From NCBI RefSeq assembly GCF_019744875.1, contig NZ_JAIETU010000006.1, positions 372,001 through 436,000 on the forward strand: DNA of 64,000 nt, read 5' to 3'. Position 1 is the first letter of the stretch. Each line of letters begins with the position of its first letter. This document shows positions 2,525-10,282 of the stretch, piece after piece. Origin of the DNA: Hyphomicrobium sp. GTDB taxonomy: Bacteria > Pseudomonadota > Alphaproteobacteria > Rhizobiales > Hyphomicrobiaceae. Position numbers and translations under genes: made by a program. The notes below the pieces were generated by a model that was given only the letters and a program-made list of their open reading frames with translations, did no database searches and was not told where the DNA came from.

Positions 2525-4546
2525 CTAGGGCTGCCAGAGGCGGTTGTCGGACGCGATGTGCTCAGATTCAGCCCACACCGCGAGCCGTTGGCGATAGGCC
2601 TCGCGGAGGTGCTCCGTGGTGGCGTGGTGCGTGCCGGAGACGGCGAAGTCGAGGCCGATCTCAAAGTAGGCGTTCATGTTCGTGAAGTTGGGCTTTGGCA
2701 GCCGGTCTTCGACGGCCTCGGTCCACATGTGATGGAACAGGGCTTCCAGCTCGCGTACAAGGCGCGGCGTATCGAACAGGGTCGATGACGGCCGGTTGGC
2801 TTCGAGACGCGCCTTGAGGCTATCCGTTTCGGCCTGGTTGCGGCCCAGTGCGATGGCGCGCTGGGTGAAGCTCTCGATGTCGTTGCAGACGAGATCGCCG
2901 AGGCCCGCTGCCTGCACCACGCTTGCACATACGCGCGCGGGGAACGTCGTGCCGGTGTAGGTCAGCACGGGAACGCCGATCCACATGGCATCGGATGCGG
3001 TGGTGTGCGCCCCATAGGGGCTGTTGTCCAAGAAGAGATCCGCGAGGCGGTACCGCGCCAGATGCTCGGGGTTGGGCTGGCGGCCGGCAAACACCAGACG
3101 TTCGGGCGCGACACCTGCCTCAGCCGCGGCCGCGCGGAGGCGCTCGTCGGTTGCGGTGCCGCCGCTCAGCAGCCACAGCACGCTGTCCGGGACCTCACGC
3201 AGAATGGTGAGCCAGGCGTCGAGAACATCCGGCGTGAGTTTCTGCGAGCCGTTGAAGCAGCAGTAAACGTATCCATGGGCCGGCAATCCGGCGTCTTCCC
3301 GGCTCGGCGTGGCCTCTGCGACGACGCGCTTGCGGTCGTTGGGTTGATAGCAGGGAAGGCGCAGCACCTTTTCCGAGACGTAGATCTCGTCCTCTTCCGG
3401 CAGCACGATGGGGTCCGCGATGATGTAGTGATGATGCGTGCTGCCCATCGTGCCAGGATAGCCGAACCAATTCACGGCAACGGGAGCAGGGCGATAGGCA
3501 AAGATGCGGGAGCGCGCGTCCTTGGTGTAGCCGTTGAGGTCGATCAGGATGTCGATGCCATCGGCGTGAATGCGCTGGGCGGCATCGGCATCGGAGAGCC
3601 GCGTGATGTCGACCCAGTGGTCGACGGCCTGCTCGGCGCGGCGGCGCGTCGGATCCATGCGATCGATGCCGCAGTAGTAGGCCGTGATCTCGAACGCGGT
3701 CTTGTCGTGGCATTCGAGAACGTCGGCCATCGCGAAGCCCACCGCGTGCTCGCGCAGGTCGGATGAAATGTAACCGATGCGCAGCTTGCCGCCACGTCCG
3801 GACCGCTTCCGGGCCGAGCCGTCGGGGCAGAGCGGCGTGCGCGGCGCGCCGGTCAGCTCGCGGCTGTATTTGTGTGCGCGCGCCAGCGCGAACATCGGAT
3901 CGTGGCTCAGGGCGGCGAGAGAGAGCGGCGAGATCGCTGCATAGAGCTTGGCCACGTCGACATGCTCGCTGCCGGCCATGACTGGCCATTTGCATTGGCG
4001 CTGGCGCGCGGCGACCCAGTGCTGCACGACCTCGGGCTGATGCGCATTGATGTCGAGAGACTGCCTCAGCGCGTCTTCGGCGGGCTCGTCCTGCTGGAAT
4101 GCTTCGAGCACGCGGCCGAGCTGCTGCAACGCGATGAGCTTGTGCTTCACCGAGTTGCCGTCGATCGAAGCCGTCTGGGCGACGAGCTGAAGCCACTGCG
4201 TGACGGCGCCGCCGGCCTGTCCGTCGTCTTCCAGCAGCCGCCCGAGATTGATGTGGGAGGGCAGAAAATCCGACTTGATGCTGAGGCTGGCCCGCAAAGC
4301 GTTCATGGCGCCGTAGCGGTCGCCCGCTTTGTTCAGGGCGACGCCGTAGTTGAAGTAGACCGCGTGGAGCAGCGGGTTCGTGGGATTGCGCGCGATCCAA
4401 TCGCGATAGCTGTTTGCCGCGCCCGCGATATCGCCCTGCTGCTCCTGGGCATCGGCGAGCGTGAAGAGGTCGCCGACACTCAGGGTGTCGAGGCGGATAG
4501 GCGGCGTTTCGGGCGGATTGGCAGGGAACGACGGAACAATGGTCAT
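2525..4546 (-). CDS. TPR-containing SPINDLY/OGT-family O-linked N-acetylglucosamine transferase (GT41)
   Basis: A 673-residue cytoplasmic glycosyltransferase of the OGT family. It would transfer a sugar, usually GlcNAc from UDP-GlcNAc, to Ser or Thr of a protein. Residues about 25-190 form TPR helices (repeats around FTLADAQEQQG, FNYGVALNKAG and SHINLGRLLED). Residues about 245-640 are the catalytic part, with the HAVGF histidine motif after ISSDLRE, DLNGYT, and FNGSQKLTP containing the lysine expected to contact UDP. Length is normal for bacterial TPR-OGTs. The start is ATG 4546 with AAGGA upstream. It lies 42 bases after the octapeptide-repeat gene on the same strand, so the two are probably co-transcribed. 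The Ser/Thr-rich repeat protein is the obvious candidate substrate, by inference. Confidence 0.9.
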   Translation of the reverse strand: MTIVPSFPANPPETPPIRLDTLSVGDLFTLADAQEQQGDIAGAANSYRDWIARNPTNPLLHAVYFNYGVALNKAGDRYGAMNALRASLSIKSDFLPSHINLGRLLEDDGQAGGAVTQWLQLVAQTASIDGNSVKHKLIALQQLGRVLEAFQQDEPAEDALRQSLDINAHQPEVVQHWVAARQRQCKWPVMAGSEHVDVAKLYAAISPLSLAALSHDPMFALARAHKYSRELTGAPRTPLCPDGSARKRSGRGGKLRIGYISSDLREHAVGFAMADVLECHDKTAFEITAYYCGIDRMDPTRRRAEQAVDHWVDITRLSDADAAQRIHADGIDILIDLNGYTKDARSRIFAYRPAPVAVNWFGYPGTMGSTHHHYIIADPIVLPEEDEIYVSEKVLRLPCYQPNDRKRVVAEATPSREDAGLPAHGYVYCCFNGSQKLTPDVLDAWLTILREVPDSVLWLLSGGTATDERLRAAAAEAGVAPERLVFAGRQPNPEHLARYRLADLFLDNSPYGAHTTASDAMWIGVPVLTYTGTTFPARVCASVVQAAGLGDLVCNDIESFTQRAIALGRNQAETDSLKARLEANRPSSTLFDTPRLVRELEALFHHMWTEAVEDRLPKPNFTNMNAYFEIGLDFAVSGTHHATTEHLREAYRQRLAVWAESEHIASDNRLWQP

Positions 4547-4588
4547 GCGTATCGGTCCTTGAAGCTCACGCGATCAATTCGACTTCAA

Positions 4589-7500
4589 TCAGGAAACTGC
4601 GGCTTCGAGCGCTGCGATCTGCTCGCTGGTCATGCTGGCGAGCTGCGTCTCGGTGAAGGCGGAAATCTGCACGCCGTTGAGGGCGCCGATCGTGGTGGTG
4701 GTCAACCCGCTGATGGCCGTGGGAGTCAGAGAGCCGATCTGGGTGGTGGTGAGGCCAGCCACCTGGTTGGTCGAGAACGATGCGATGACGCTGGGCGACA
4801 TGCTGTTGAGCTGCTGCGTCGAAAGTGCGCCGATCTGAGTGGGTGAGAGCGCGCCCAGCTGAGACGCGCTGAGCGCGGCCAGCATCGACGTGGTCATGTT
4901 GACGATCTGAGACGCGTCGAAGGCTGCGATCTGCGTTTGCGTGAGGGCTGCGATCTGCGGTGTGGTCAGGGCGCGGATCTGGACGCGCAGGAGGCCCGAA
5001 AGCTGTGTGGGGCTGAGGCCCGCGATGTCCGTTTCTGACATGGCGCGGATCTGGGTCGAGTCCATCGCAGCAATCTGCGTTGCCCTGAGGCCGGAGAACT
5101 GCGTCTCGGTCAGGGCGGCGATCTGCGCCTCGCTCAGGCCGGGGAGAGCACCAGCCGAGATTGCGCCGATCTGCGTCGAGGAGAGCGCGCCGAGCTGGGT
5201 TTCGGTGAGGCTTGCCAGTTGCGTCGAGGTCAGGCCGCCGATGCCGGTTCGCGACAGCAATCCAACCTGCGTGGTCGTCAGGCTTTCGATCTGGCTTGGC
5301 GTCAACGCGCCGATGCCCGTGGCGGACAGCCCGGCCAGTTGCGTGCTCGTCAGCGCCTTGAGTTGCGTGGTGGTCAGGCCGGCGATGGCGGTGCTCGACA
5401 GTGCGGCGATCTGGGTCGCGCGGACGGACGACATCTGCTCGCTGGTGAGCGCCGAGATCTGCGTGTTCGTGAGGCCGGAGATTGCGCTTGTCGAGAGCGC
5501 GCCGATCTGCGTCACGGTCAGCGCGCGCAGTTGCGACGTGCTGAGGGACGCAAGCGTGGTCGCCTTCAGGCCGGCCAGCGAGTCGGGCGCGAGCGCTTGG
5601 AGTTGCCGCGTCGAGAGAGAGTCGATCTGGGTTGTGCTCAGCGCGCCGATCTGGGTGGCGCTCAGGCCAGCGAGCTGCGTGGTCGTGAGCGAGGCGAGGC
5701 GCGTGCTCGAAAGGCTGTTGATCGCGGTGGTAGAGAGGCCGGCGATCTGCTGCGGGTCGAGGGCTGCGAACTTCGACGGCGTGAGAGACTCGATCTGCGT
5801 GACGGTCAGGCCCGAGAGCCCCGAGGGCGAGAGCGCCTTGAACTGGCTTGCGGCCAATGCGCCGAGTTGCGTGGTCGTCAAGCTTGCGACCTGCGACGAG
5901 GTCAGGCCGTAGAGCGCGGTCGTGCTCAACACGCGGATCTGATCCGGCGTCAGGCTGCCGAGCTGGGTGACGGAGAGCGCGGCGATGCCCGTCGTCGAGA
6001 GCGCGCTGAACTGGGTGGTGGTGAGCGCGGCAAGCTCGGACTCGGAGAGCCCGGAGAGCGCGGTCGGCGAAAGGGCCGCGATCTGCGTGGGCGTGAGGCT
6101 CGTGAGCTGGCTCGTCGAGAGCGCGCCGATCTGGGTGGCGCTGAAGCCGCTGATGGCCGTTCCCGAGAGGGCCCTGAGGCTTGTCGTCGAAAGGCCGGCG
6201 AGCTGCTGCGTCGTCAGCGCCGCGGTGTGCTCCGAGGTGAGCCCAGCGAGCTGCGTGGCCGACAGGCGCGCGATCTGGGTTGTCGTGAGGCTGGCGATCT
6301 GCGCGGTCGTGAGGCCGCGAATTTGCGTCATGGTGAGGGCGCCGAACTGAGCGGTGCTCAGGCCGGCCAACTGTTCGGTCGAAAGCGCGCCGATCGCGCT
6401 CGGCGCGAGGGCTGCGAGCTGGGTCGGTGTCAGGGCCGCAAGCTGTGAGGTGGTCAGCGCCGCGGATTGCGCGTCGGTCAGGCCGCCGAGCGCGGCGGTC
6501 GACAGGGCGGCAAGGCGCGCGGGCGACTGGCTCTGGAGCTGCGCCGTGGTGAGCGCCGCGACCTGCTGGCCGGTCAGGCCACGCAGTTGTTGGGTCGTCA
6601 ACGCCGAAAGCTGATCTGTGGTGAGCGACGAAATCGCGGCCGTAGAGAGGCCGGCGAGCTGCGTTGAAGAGAGCGATTCCAACTGGCCGATGTTGATCGC
6701 AGCAACCTGGACCTCGCCCAGGGCGCCCAACTGGGTTGCGGTGAGGCCGCGCAGCTGGGTGGTGGTGAGCGCGGCAATCGCGGTCGTCGAAAGTCCGGCC
6801 AAAGCCGATGTCGAGAGCCCCGAGATCTGCCGCGAGGTCAATGCTCCGAGCTGTTCCGAGCTGAGGCCGGAAATCTGAGACGCCGTCAGTCCGGCAATCT
6901 GCTCGGACAGGAACATTGCGAGCCGCTCCGGCCCGAATGCGCCGAGCTGCGCCGGGGTCAGTGTTCCGAGCTGCGTCGCGGTGAGGCCGCGCAGCAGCCG
7001 GTCGTCGAGCCCGGACAGGGTCGTTGCATCCAACGCCGCAAGGGCTGCTGGCGCAATGCCGCCGAGCTGGGTCGAGCTCAAGCTCGCGAGCAGCGTGGTC
7101 GACAGGCCGGCGATCCGCGTGCCGTCGAGGGCGGCGATCTGTGCCGCGCTCAGTCCATCGGCCTGCAGCGTCGTAAGCAACTGGAGCTGGTCGTCGGTCA
7201 GGGCGGACAGGGTGGAGGGCAGCAGCGAGCCGATCTGGTTCGACGACAGCGCGGAGAAATGCCCGGCGGGGAGGCTTTCGATCTGCGTGGCGGTGAGCCC
7301 GCGCATCTGCGTGGCGGTCAGGCTCGAGAACTGAGCCGCCGAGAGGGCGCCGATCTGCTCGGTCGAGAGCGCGGACACCTGCGCGGCGCGTAACGCCAGG
7401 AGCTGGGTCGGGCTGAGAGACGCGATCTGCTCGGTTCCGAGCGAGCCGATGACTTCCGGTGCGATGCCAGCGATCTGCGACGTGGTCCAGCGTGACATCT

Positions 7501-10282
7501 GCGCTGGCGAGAAACTTTCGATCTGGGCGGAATCGAGCGCGCCGATCTGCGTTGCGGTCAGGCCGGCGAGCTGGGTGGCGCTGAGCGACTGGAGTGCCGT
7601 GATGGACAGTCCCGCAATCGCAACCGTCGAGAGCGCGGAAATCTGCGTCGCCGAGAGGGACGCGAGCTGTCCGGCGCTCAATGATACGACCTGATATTCG
7701 GAGAGCGCGCGCACCTGCGTCGTGGTCAGGCCGGAGAAGAAGCTCTGTGAGAGCTGCATCATTTCTTCGACGGAAAGTCCGGTGATCCCGTCCGCGGTGA
7801 GGGCGGCGATCTGCGTGGTCGACAAGGCGGCGAGCTGGGTCGACGTCAAGGCCGAGATCTGCGCGTTGCCAAGACCCGAAATCGCGCGCGTCGACAGGGC
7901 AGCGATCTGCGTTTCGGATAGCGCCGCGACCTGGTTATCGCTGAGCGCCGATGCCTGGCCGGCGTTGAGCCCGGCGATCTGCTCGGTGGTCAGCTGTGAG
8001 ATGGTCTGCGCCGTCAGGCCGCCGATGGCGTTTTTCGACAGGGCGCCGATTTGCGTCGACGTCAGGACGCCGACTTGCGTGCCCGTCAGCGCTCCCGCCT
8101 GCTCCTCGTTCAGCGCGCGAATTTGTGTGGATGTGAGGGCGCGGACCTGGTCTGTCGAGAGCGAGGCGATGACGTCGGGCGACAGTCCGGCGATACCTGC
8201 GGCAGAGAGCGCTGCGACCTGGCTCGGCGACAGACTGGCGAGCTGCGACGGCGTGAGCCCCGAGACTTGCGTGGAGTTGAGGCTCGCCAACCCGGTCGTA
8301 GAAAGGCCCGCAACCTGCGTTGCAGACAGCGTCGCGATCTGAGTTTCGTTGAGGCCGCGAAGCTGGGCGGCCTTGAGACCGTTGATCTGGTCGACAGACA
8401 ACGCGGCGATGTCGTCGGCATCCAGGCCCGCGATGGCCGTGCTCGTGAGGTTGGCCAACTGAGCGTTGGACAATGCGCTGAGCTGGCTTGCGGAGAGTGC
8501 CGCGAGCTGTGTGTCGCGCAGACCTGAAATCGCCTTGGCGCCAAGCGCGCCGATCTGCGTGGTCGTCAGGGCCGCGATCTGGGTCGTCGACAGCAGCGCC
8601 ATCTTCTCGGCGGTGAAGCCACCGATCTGGGCCGGGCTCAAGGCGGCAATTTCAGCGGGCGAGAGATCGGCGATGAGCGTGGCGCTCAGGCTGGTGATCT
8701 GGCTCGGCGAAAGGGCCGCAATCTGGGTCGGCGTGAGATTGCGGAAGGTCGTCGCCGTCATGCGCCCCATTTGTGTGGGCGCCAAGTCGCGCACGTCGAA
8801 GCGGATGTTGCCGGTCACGGCGAGGGCTTCGATCTGTGTCGCCGAGAGCGACTTCACCTGTTGCGAGGTGAGGCTTTCGAGCTGGGTGGGCGCGAGCGCG
8901 AGGATCAGGTTCGTCGATGCGGCGGCAATCTGAGACGGCTTCAGGCCGCGGAGCTGCGCGGTGGACAGCGCCGTGAACTCGGCCGGCGACAGGCGATTGA
9001 TTGAGCCCGTCGAGAGCGCGCCGAACTGAGTGGCGCTCAGGCCCAAGATCTGCGCCGTGCTGAGCCTGTCGAACGTGGTGGTCGAAAGGCCCGACAATTG
9101 CGTGGCCGAGAAGCTGGATGGCGGGATTGCGTTGAGGGCAGTCTCCGACAAGGCTCCGAGCTGGGACGCAGAAATTCCGGAGACCTGCGCCGCTGTGAGC
9201 TGGGCGAGCTGCGTCGTTGCGAAATTGTCGAGCGTCGTTGCCGTCGCCCCGCCGATCTGGCGCGCGGTCAGGCCTGCGATCTGCGTCGTCGTCAAGGCGC
9301 GCAGCACGGACGGCGGCAGGTTGTTGATCGTGGTTGTCGACAGAGACGCGATCTGCGTCCCGCGCAGGGCGGCGAACTGCGTTTCCGTAAGATTGTCGAT
9401 GGCGGTGGCGGTGAGCTTAGCGAGCTGAGCCGTCGTGAAATTCTCGGCTTGGAGTGCGCCGAGCGAGCTTGCCGGGAGCGCATTGATCTGTGCGGCAGTC
9501 AGGCCGCGAACCTGCGTCGCGGTGAGCGCGCCGATCTGCGTGGCCGTCAGCGTGTTGAGCAGGCCTGACGTGGACGTGGAGAGCGCGCGCGCCGACAGGC
9601 CGCTGATCTGGGTCGCCGAAAGGCTCTGGATCTCGTCTGCGGAGAGCACGCTCAGCGCGGTCGCGGACAAGCCGGAAATCTGGCTCGACGACAAGGCCGC
9701 GATCTGCGAGGCGGAGAAATTGTCGAACGCCGTCGCGCTGAACCGGCTGATCTGAGACGAAGACAACCCGGAAAAATCCAGCGCCTGAAGCCGCTCGGGT
9801 GACATTGTGTTGAGGCGGGTGGCGGGGAAGCTCCGCACCTGGGTCGGCGTGAGATGCGAAAGCTGGGTTGGCGTGAACTTTTCGATCGTCTGGCTGGAAA
9901 GGCCCGCGATCTGCGTTGCGGTCAGTGCGCGAAGCTGTTCCGGCGACAGTTTCTGGATGTCGGCTTCGGACAGGGAGTTGAGCTGCGTCAGGGTCAGGGC
10001 CGCCGTCTGGCGCGCAGTGAAGGCATCGAGGTCGTCAGCCGCGAGGGCTTCGAACAGGGCGAGGCTGAGCTTGCTGAGGCTGACCGTCGACAGCGAGGAC
10101 ACCGTCGTCGCGGTCATGGCCTCGATGTTGGTGGTGCTGAGCGCGTTAAGCTGCGTTGCGCTGATTGCGGCGGCCTGCGACGTCGTCAGCGCCTCCATGT
10201 CGGAGGTCTGCGCGTCACGGAAAGCGGACTGCGACAGTCTCGCGATGAGCGATGCCGAAAGGCCGGAAAAAATAGATGTCAT
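4589..10282 (-). CDS. Giant Ser/Thr-rich octapeptide-repeat protein (1897 aa)
   Basis: I do not recognise a named family. From about residue 8 to residue 1891 the protein is a run of about 230 octapeptides of the form L-[ST]-x-x-[QAED]-[IL]-x-[AGS], for example LSTTQIAA, LTATQVRG, LSPAEIAA. The register is broken only a few times, for example near LDFSG, STSTSGLLNT and GNIRFDVRD, all in the N-terminal third. I find no signal peptide, membrane segment or calcium-binding repeat, and no cysteine by eye. Ser/Thr at position 2 with Gln/Glu at position 5 resembles a helix N-capping box, so each unit may form a short helix stacked in a thin solenoid. The gene heads a two-gene unit with an O-GlcNAc-type transferase. 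Surface, storage or scaffold roles are all possible; the location is unknown. Confidence 0.85.
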   Translation of the reverse strand: MTSIFSGLSASLIARLSQSAFRDAQTSDMEALTTSQAAAISATQLNALSTTNIEAMTATTVSSLSTVSLSKLSLALFEALAADDLDAFTARQTAALTLTQLNSLSEADIQKLSPEQLRALTATQIAGLSSQTIEKFTPTQLSHLTPTQVRSFPATRLNTMSPERLQALDFSGLSSSQISRFSATAFDNFSASQIAALSSSQISGLSATALSVLSADEIQSLSATQISGLSARALSTSTSGLLNTLTATQIGALTATQVRGLTAAQINALPASSLGALQAENFTTAQLAKLTATAIDNLTETQFAALRGTQIASLSTTTINNLPPSVLRALTTTQIAGLTARQIGGATATTLDNFATTQLAQLTAAQVSGISASQLGALSETALNAIPPSSFSATQLSGLSTTTFDRLSTAQILGLSATQFGALSTGSINRLSPAEFTALSTAQLRGLKPSQIAAASTNLILALAPTQLESLTSQQVKSLSATQIEALAVTGNIRFDVRDLAPTQMGRMTATTFRNLTPTQIAALSPSQITSLSATLIADLSPAEIAALSPAQIGGFTAEKMALLSTTQIAALTTTQIGALGAKAISGLRDTQLAALSASQLSALSNAQLANLTSTAIAGLDADDIAALSVDQINGLKAAQLRGLNETQIATLSATQVAGLSTTGLASLNSTQVSGLTPSQLASLSPSQVAALSAAGIAGLSPDVIASLSTDQVRALTSTQIRALNEEQAGALTGTQVGVLTSTQIGALSKNAIGGLTAQTISQLTTEQIAGLNAGQASALSDNQVAALSETQIAALSTRAISGLGNAQISALTSTQLAALSTTQIAALTADGITGLSVEEMMQLSQSFFSGLTTTQVRALSEYQVVSLSAGQLASLSATQISALSTVAIAGLSITALQSLSATQLAGLTATQIGALDSAQIESFSPAQMSRWTTSQIAGIAPEVIGSLGTEQIASLSPTQLLALRAAQVSALSTEQIGALSAAQFSSLTATQMRGLTATQIESLPAGHFSALSSNQIGSLLPSTLSALTDDQLQLLTTLQADGLSAAQIAALDGTRIAGLSTTLLASLSSTQLGGIAPAALAALDATTLSGLDDRLLRGLTATQLGTLTPAQLGAFGPERLAMFLSEQIAGLTASQISGLSSEQLGALTSRQISGLSTSALAGLSTTAIAALTTTQLRGLTATQLGALGEVQVAAINIGQLESLSSTQLAGLSTAAISSLTTDQLSALTTQQLRGLTGQQVAALTTAQLQSQSPARLAALSTAALGGLTDAQSAALTTSQLAALTPTQLAALAPSAIGALSTEQLAGLSTAQFGALTMTQIRGLTTAQIASLTTTQIARLSATQLAGLTSEHTAALTTQQLAGLSTTSLRALSGTAISGFSATQIGALSTSQLTSLTPTQIAALSPTALSGLSESELAALTTTQFSALSTTGIAALSVTQLGSLTPDQIRVLSTTALYGLTSSQVASLTTTQLGALAASQFKALSPSGLSGLTVTQIESLTPSKFAALDPQQIAGLSTTAINSLSSTRLASLTTTQLAGLSATQIGALSTTQIDSLSTRQLQALAPDSLAGLKATTLASLSTSQLRALTVTQIGALSTSAISGLTNTQISALTSEQMSSVRATQIAALSSTAIAGLTTTQLKALTSTQLAGLSATGIGALTPSQIESLTTTQVGLLSRTGIGGLTSTQLASLTETQLGALSSTQIGAISAGALPGLSEAQIAALTETQFSGLRATQIAAMDSTQIRAMSETDIAGLSPTQLSGLLRVQIRALTTPQIAALTQTQIAAFDASQIVNMTTSMLAALSASQLGALSPTQIGALSTQQLNSMSPSVIASFSTNQVAGLTTTQIGSLTPTAISGLTTTTIGALNGVQISAFTETQLASMTSEQIAALEAAVS
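4610..10261 (-). repeat. 24-base tandem coding repeat array (octapeptide units)
   Basis: The coding sequence is a tandem array of diverged 24-base units. The register is exact over long distances: the block GATCT ends at 4980, 5460, 5940 and 8700, all separated by whole multiples of 24, and 4980 to 8700 is 155 units with no net indel. Individual units differ at many bases while the Leu, Ser/Thr, Gln and Ile positions persist. This suggests selection on the protein pattern rather than very recent DNA duplication. Confidence 0.85.

Follow-up and report, generated by a model that had tools for sequence, protein, structure and literature searches.

Features of the octad repeat protein

The window, a stretch of 64,000 nucleotides from Hyphomicrobium sp., holds a gene whose product is built of octapeptides almost from end to end, and the question it raises is what such a long and regular protein does. 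The first-pass annotation had placed an open reading frame made of octads at 4589..10282. These coordinates hold and the strand is minus: the frame of 1897 residues reads from 10282 to 4589, while frame 1 of the plus strand contains in-frame stops over the same stretch. About 82% of the protein consists of Ala, Leu, Thr, Ser, Gln, Gly and Ile, and Cys is absent. The strict motif given initially, L-[ST]-x-x-[QAED]-[IL]-x-[AGS], matched 99 times, with 85 of the 99 matches sharing one register modulo 8. Identity at lag 8 was 0.337, compared with a mean of 0.111 (sd 0.007, maximum 0.134) for 1000 shuffles. A phase-tracking model delimited 228 complete octads, close to the approximately 230 copies counted at first.

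According to this model, Leu occupies position 1 in 84% of the octads, Ser/Thr position 2 in 80%, position 3 in 38% and position 4 in 60%, Gln position 5 in 63%, and Ile/Leu/Val position 6 in 86%. Position 7 is chiefly Ala, Ser or Gly and position 8 chiefly Ala, Gly or Ser. At least one Ser/Thr was present at positions 2-4 in 209 of the 228 complete octads, and the whole protein contains 533 of these residues. The N-terminal 60 residues (10103..10282, minus strand) have an MTSI-type start that is common to many relatives. No signal peptide was apparent by eye, and no further domain stood out in a Pfam scan, as had been claimed. The Pfam rows CAAP1, LRR_EndoS and Sigma70_r4_2 exceeded the whole-protein cut-offs, but no single stretch passed alone; since all of them lie inside the repeat, they were read as low-complexity sums and rejected.

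The octad phase is kept exactly for 174.6 octads in the phase-tracking model, forming a pure region at about residues 496-1892 (about 4607..8797, minus strand). An exact 24-base phase had been reported over at least 155 units, and this stretch is confirmed and longer. The N-terminal ~500 residues run in more than one phase, with three-residue slips near residues 169, 278, 389 and 496, that is, every ~109 residues, and a few shorter local slips. Four diverged modules of 109 residues, each equal to 13 octads and one pentad, are found there (residues 61-169, 170-278, 279-387 and 388-496; 8795..10102, minus strand). Over the first 620 residues, identity was 0.32 at lag 109 vs 0.09 at lag 108 and 0.07 at lag 110. 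In relatives L036 and L037 the phase slips at nearly the same sites as in the window array, and the arrays of L038 and L039 consist of 109-residue modules almost end to end (lag-109 identity of 0.50 and 0.49, respectively). This higher-order repeat in the N-terminal quarter is a point absent from the first-pass annotation.

Orthologues from two other genomes of the same genus have 1897 residues each, like the window protein, to which they are 61% and 60% identical, with 68% identity between the two. The MAFFT alignment of the three contains zero gaps. For each of the two orthologues, 19 stretches of 96 residues were compared with registers shifted by up to 12 octads, and the unshifted register was the best in all 19. 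An alignment of the pure octad stretch was left out because gaps opened in it (280 columns for 240 residues). Such a gap-free, constant copy number is unusual for a tandem array, and three orthologues of equal length that align without gaps at 60-68% identity support the earlier proposal that indels are strongly disfavoured.

Repeat family and predicted fold

The repeat had been thought to belong to no named family. Pfam PF20080 (ALTTAQ_rpt) matched the whole array with an E value of 1.1e-217 (703.8 bits vs a cut-off of 26.4, 64 stretches), and the solved protein HeliScrew4 (9zem, 120 residues) matched over 107 residues (phmmer E 7.4e-17). A new repeat class, suggested on the proviso that no profile of a described family would match, is ruled out by these two matches. 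An NCBIfam search of the array returned no match at E 0.01. The Pfam name covers the repeat alone. In outline, 9zem shares the octad L-[ST]-x-x-Q-I-A-A. Over the 107 residues covered, Pro, Glu or Asp predominate at its positions 3 and 4 and Ser/Thr is at 0%, whereas the natural arrays have Ser/Thr there. Designed solenoids are reportedly the subject of a 2025 paper.

Two stretches were modelled with AlphaFold2. The mean pLDDT was 94.4 for residues 280-600 (13-row alignment) and 93.9 for residues 1340-1660 (three-row alignment), with a pTM of 0.83 in both cases. In each model an octad contributes roughly one helix, usually four to six residues long, and strands are absent. The very regular short-helix solenoid that had been anticipated is what the prediction returned, and disorder, the outcome named as its refutation, was predicted in neither stretch. 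Confidence is high in each block, which supports the modelled local fold well; the global twist is less certain. The long protein would then form a superhelix with approximately one short helix per octad. Judging from the octad pattern, Leu at position 1 and Ile/Leu at position 6 would pack the core and Ser/Thr at position 2 would cap the helix, while Ser/Thr at positions 3 and 4, which are probably exposed, would point outward.

A Foldseek search against the PDB gave weak matches; among the 50 listed of 568, mesothelin chains were the best (TM 0.19-0.34) and 9zem was absent. Membership of the leucine-rich repeats (LRR) was rejected on the period of 8 and the absence of strands in the two models, vs parallel beta strands and repeats of 20-30 residues. 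Sequence matches to LRR chains (E 9e-11 or weaker) were read as compositional. Armadillo membership was likewise discarded on the lack of strands and the weak Foldseek matches.

The neighbouring glycosyltransferase

The best clue to function is the neighbouring gene, which the first-pass annotation did not mention. The next gene 3' of the array, on the same strand, encodes a TPR + GT41 glycosyltransferase of the OGT/SPINDLY superfamily with 673 residues (2525..4546, minus strand). The two genes are 42 bp apart (4547..4588, minus strand). This gap carries an AAGGA, nine bases ahead of the ATG of the enzyme gene, and no terminator-like site could be found in it. The GT41 domain PF13844 scored 273.6 bits (cut-off 25) and TPR_14 28.4 bits (cut-off 23.5). 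Among solved relatives, XcOGT matched at E 1.6e-86, OGT (110 kDa subunit) at 4e-77 and SPINDLY at 8e-43. With these the window enzyme shares the TPR part, the GT41 domain and active-site residues; it differs from them in belonging to a separate high-scoring group, which is usually encoded next to an octad array.

The catalytic Lys and the HTT oxyanion-hole motif are present in the enzyme. In alignment, K436 falls opposite a Lys of XcOGT. Six enzymes compared with one another all carry K436, H514 and T516, and five of them carry T515. Judging from the motif, K436 and H514-T516 are the probable counterparts of hOGT K842 and H920-T922. Catalytic roles for these hOGT residues are described in published work (PMC4683255). 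A phage origin was not indicated by a tblastn search against a phage collection (no match at 1e-5). Five further GT41 matches were found in the window's genome, none of them next to an array; four fall within a single frame. That frame, of 2556 residues, lies at 374870-381541 of contig C2 (genome G000), with a PrtD-type secretion gene ~22 kb away; GT41-matching frames of 2562 and 1909 residues were seen in genomes G001 and G004, respectively.

In the preferred reading, to which a probability of roughly two in three is assigned, the two genes form a glycoprotein cassette: a cytoplasmic O-glycosyltransferase would be dedicated to a giant acceptor rich in Ser/Thr, and this acceptor would later be exported to become a surface or extracellular protein. 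The TPR domain of the enzyme would grip the octad solenoid, and the catalytic domain would add sugar to many hydroxyls of the array in the cytoplasm. In Caulobacter, the TPR part of FlmG, also a cytoplasmic TPR-glycosyltransferase, binds the flagellins that FlmG glycosylates (PMC7591256), which may serve as a precedent for a TPR part holding its substrate. The likeness drawn here is one of description, and the substrate there is flagellin vs the octad array proposed here.

Linkage and co-occurrence of arrays and enzymes

A search of a species-genome collection with a profile of six enzymes gave 255 confirmed relatives. The best 80 were taken together with their flanks; their identity over the best segment is 47-74%. 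An octad array lay within 1.5 kb in 77 of these 80 loci and within 400 bp in 68. Among the 77 arrays, 62 are upstream of the enzyme gene on the same strand and 15 are on the opposite strand. The array test required six motifs, with at least 20 present in 62 of the 77 arrays; it was passed by none of the 80 loci when reversed, by none when base-shuffled, and by no part of the window outside the array. Three enzyme loci (L090, L094 and L116) had no array. The sample is biased, as the 80 loci are those closest to a profile made from six linked enzymes. Twenty-one of the 77 arrays (loci L041-L120) reach a contig end, so that the repeats probably break assemblies.

Co-occurrence was evaluated in 59 relatives alongside the window's genome. 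Five of these relatives, from four genera, have long arrays of 36-87 matches (G001, G004, G009, G027 and G044); G019, with a single match in a 288-residue frame, was not counted. Members of the enzyme clade score no less than 1167 bits, vs 468 for the match that follows; they were present in exactly these five and the window's genome, and not in G019. The probability of drawing just these five from the 59 by chance is about 2e-7, kinship being ignored. A class sample of 289 genomes, including the window's, gave PF20080 matches in five others. The enzyme search of this sample covered the array-bearing genomes; enzymes near the clade (864-909 bits) were detected in three of the five, distant GT41 enzymes only in G099, and none in G200.

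Arrays were also collected without reference to the enzyme, through PF20080 or a plasmid tblastn of which 13 of 58 records were used. L040 and L128 (no strong array) and L129 and L139 (duplicates of L124 and L127) were left out. A GT41 gene was found within the fetched stretch at 14 of the 24 distinct loci, the window included, and was absent at 10. It lies 5-6 kb from the array in three of the 14 (L122, L124 and L133), and at L121 the enzyme is more remote, with 37% identity. Three of the ten unlinked arrays (L039, L130 and L131) are second arrays in genomes with a linked pair elsewhere. The linkage is weaker from the array side, where many arrays, rhizobial and other, have no adjacent enzyme.

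These ten loci would fit an array that is an unglycosylated structural rod or adhesin, in which Thr reflects helix capping, drift or water/ice binding, and in which the gene pairing is due to joint transfer. Joint transfer alone is a poor account of a pairing that recurs in many genera at 47-74% enzyme identity. Two further points, on the octad itself, bear on such a rod. Ser/Thr at position 2 is an ordinary helix N-cap and can be counted in its favour. The lack of Ser/Thr at positions 3 and 4 of 9zem indicates that the octad can do without Thr there, which counts against it. Taken together, the unglycosylated rod appears very unlikely.

Serine and threonine in linked and unlinked arrays

If the enzyme modifies the array, more hydroxyl residues are expected at the exposed octad positions of linked arrays. 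Linked (n=72) and unlinked (n=10) arrays were compared; the p values take no account of kinship and carry no correction for multiple comparisons. The median Ser/Thr fraction at position 3 was 0.74 in linked vs 0.48 in unlinked arrays (p 0.0017), and the corresponding values were 0.67 vs 0.31 at position 4 (p 0.0145) and 0.80 vs 0.73 at position 2 (p 0.014). Positions 7 and 8 did not differ between the two groups (p 0.83 and 0.64, respectively). The mean of positions 2-4 was higher in linked arrays both within rhizobia (21 vs 5 arrays, p 0.008) and outside them (51 vs 5, p 0.0001), while position 4 alone showed no difference within rhizobia (p 0.40). The window array is the lowest of the linked arrays at position 3 (0.38).

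The size required for this comparison, at least 300 codons together with 20 or more motifs, was reached by 62 of the 77 arrays, and 14 further linked arrays brought the set to 76. It was reduced to 72 by dropping the second copies L041, L042 and L045 and the broken L122; near-identical relatives were kept. Where a locus held more than one array, the array richest in motifs was used, which is not always the nearest to the enzyme. L126, labelled Roseateles in its record, was grouped with the rhizobia because its neighbours resemble a Shinella locus.

Sugar, export and flagellar neighbours

A sugar-nucleotide gene adjoins the array of G001, and its product matches a solved UDP-glucuronate decarboxylase (E 1e-129). 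A relative of this enzyme, at least 71% identical, was found in seven of the seven array-bearing genomes searched. Its gene lies ~0.7 kb or less from the array in four of them (G001, G004, G009 and G262) and on another contig in the window's genome, G027 and G044. UDP-xylose is put forward as a candidate donor on the ground that several arrays have the decarboxylase gene beside them. Beside the window array, neither this gene nor a secretion gene was recognized. UDP-galactopyranose mutase-like genes occur in 11 of the 80 enzyme loci; the group was judged by one representative, which scored 298.6 vs a curated cut-off of 303.75 and was clear in Pfam. All three array-less enzyme loci carry such a gene.

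Type I secretion parts, that is, an HlyD-like gene or a long secretion-type ABC gene, were detected in 10 of the 80 loci (L059, L060, L062, L064, L069, L071, L072, L080, L082 and L089). Seven ABC and four HlyD proteins were assigned by family scans and the remainder by BLAST clustering. Six of the ABC proteins had HlyB as their best family, yet fell below the curated cut-off; the PrtD-type ABC protein of L071 and the four HlyD proteins were above theirs. On a plasmid of Pseudoroseomonas cervicalis, genes for an O-GlcNAc transferase, a UDP-glucuronic acid decarboxylase, HlyD, a peptidase-type ABC transporter and the array are consecutive. The array of this plasmid (L122) is broken into several frames. 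A Cereibacter plasmid combines HlyD, an ABC transporter, a GT41 protein and an array annotated as 'heme utilization protein'. In the window's genome, PrtD-type secretion genes above cut-off are located on two other contigs.

According to the preferred reading, the sugar-coated rod would leave the cell, in at least some lineages via the adjoining type I system, and would then act as a surface or extracellular glycoprotein. The octad protein might instead be glycosylated and never exported, serving as a cytoplasmic filament or a storage-type scaffold, which would fit the lack of an apparent signal peptide and of a recognized secretion gene beside the window array. An N-terminal signal peptide is not required by type I secretion substrates. 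The type I genes that adjoin arrays in the 10 loci and on the two annotated plasmids are at odds with a purely cytoplasmic role, which is considered unlikely.

In five rhizobial loci (L087, L095, L103, L112 and L114) the array-enzyme pair lies near flgD, flbT or flgL, with these neighbours derived from clusters and one locus identified by family scan. Such a context, along with FlmG being a TPR-glycosyltransferase that acts on flagellins (PMC7591256), would suit an array that is a scaffold or partner, holding or regulating the GT41 enzyme whose true targets lie elsewhere, as flagellins do for FlmG. Flagellar genes were recognized at a minority of the 80 loci and at no place in the window, and the raised Ser/Thr content at positions 2-4 of linked arrays is unexpected for a mere scaffold. 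This explanation is judged quite unlikely, and glycosylation of the array itself is retained as the preferred reading.

Comparison with known systems

Both the repeat and the enzyme family are already known, and it is their pairing that was not found described. The literature search gave no description of it, most subscription journals lying outside the reach of that search. No paper was found on the function or partner of ALTTAQ, or on HeliScrew, and papers containing the string PF20080 were unrelated, as judged by title. The accessible text of a review on alpha-solenoids does not contain the word ALTTAQ (PMC11514114).

The array protein has no LPXTG-type motif at its end, as the array reaches the C-terminus. 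An LPXTG-type wall anchor is a defining feature of the serine-rich repeat proteins. These Gram-positive proteins are analogous in having a Ser/Thr repeat, O-glycosylation and dedicated export (PMC6973325). They differ from the present system, which has a predicted helical solenoid and a GT41 enzyme, belongs to Alphaproteobacteria, and would probably be exported by type I secretion vs their accessory Sec route. It is tentatively proposed, at slightly less than even odds, that an OGT-type clade serving one giant acceptor represents a Gram-negative, folded counterpart of these glycosylated adhesins. The TPR superhelix may track the octad superhelix, leaving hundreds of O-linked sugars, possibly pentoses from UDP-xylose.

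For a Thermobaculum OGT homologue, the authors of that study could identify no modified protein (PMC4683255). The tight gene pairing described here points to a candidate substrate, a regular and foldable scaffold that offers hundreds of possible sites, and so makes the question directly testable. If the preferred reading is correct, the arrays would supply bacterial OGT homologues with a natural class of substrates, and PF20080, on which no paper was found, would acquire a function. The pair would also offer a model for a TPR superhelix that reads a repetitive helical substrate.

Wider gene neighbourhood

A larger conserved neighbourhood was rejected, since tblastn with nine other frames of the window gave no match in seven relative loci; on this basis the adjacent polyketide cluster was taken as unrelated. 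A neighbour cluster of 20 loci was also discarded, as it was read as an antisense shadow of the GT41 gene. The region at 19111-51839 (plus strand) of the window looks like a trans-AT polyketide cluster. It contains a P450, an HMG-CoA synthase-like protein, a ketosynthase, an enoyl-CoA hydratase, an acyltransferase with an NMO domain and ABC transporters, together with a frame of 6551 residues.
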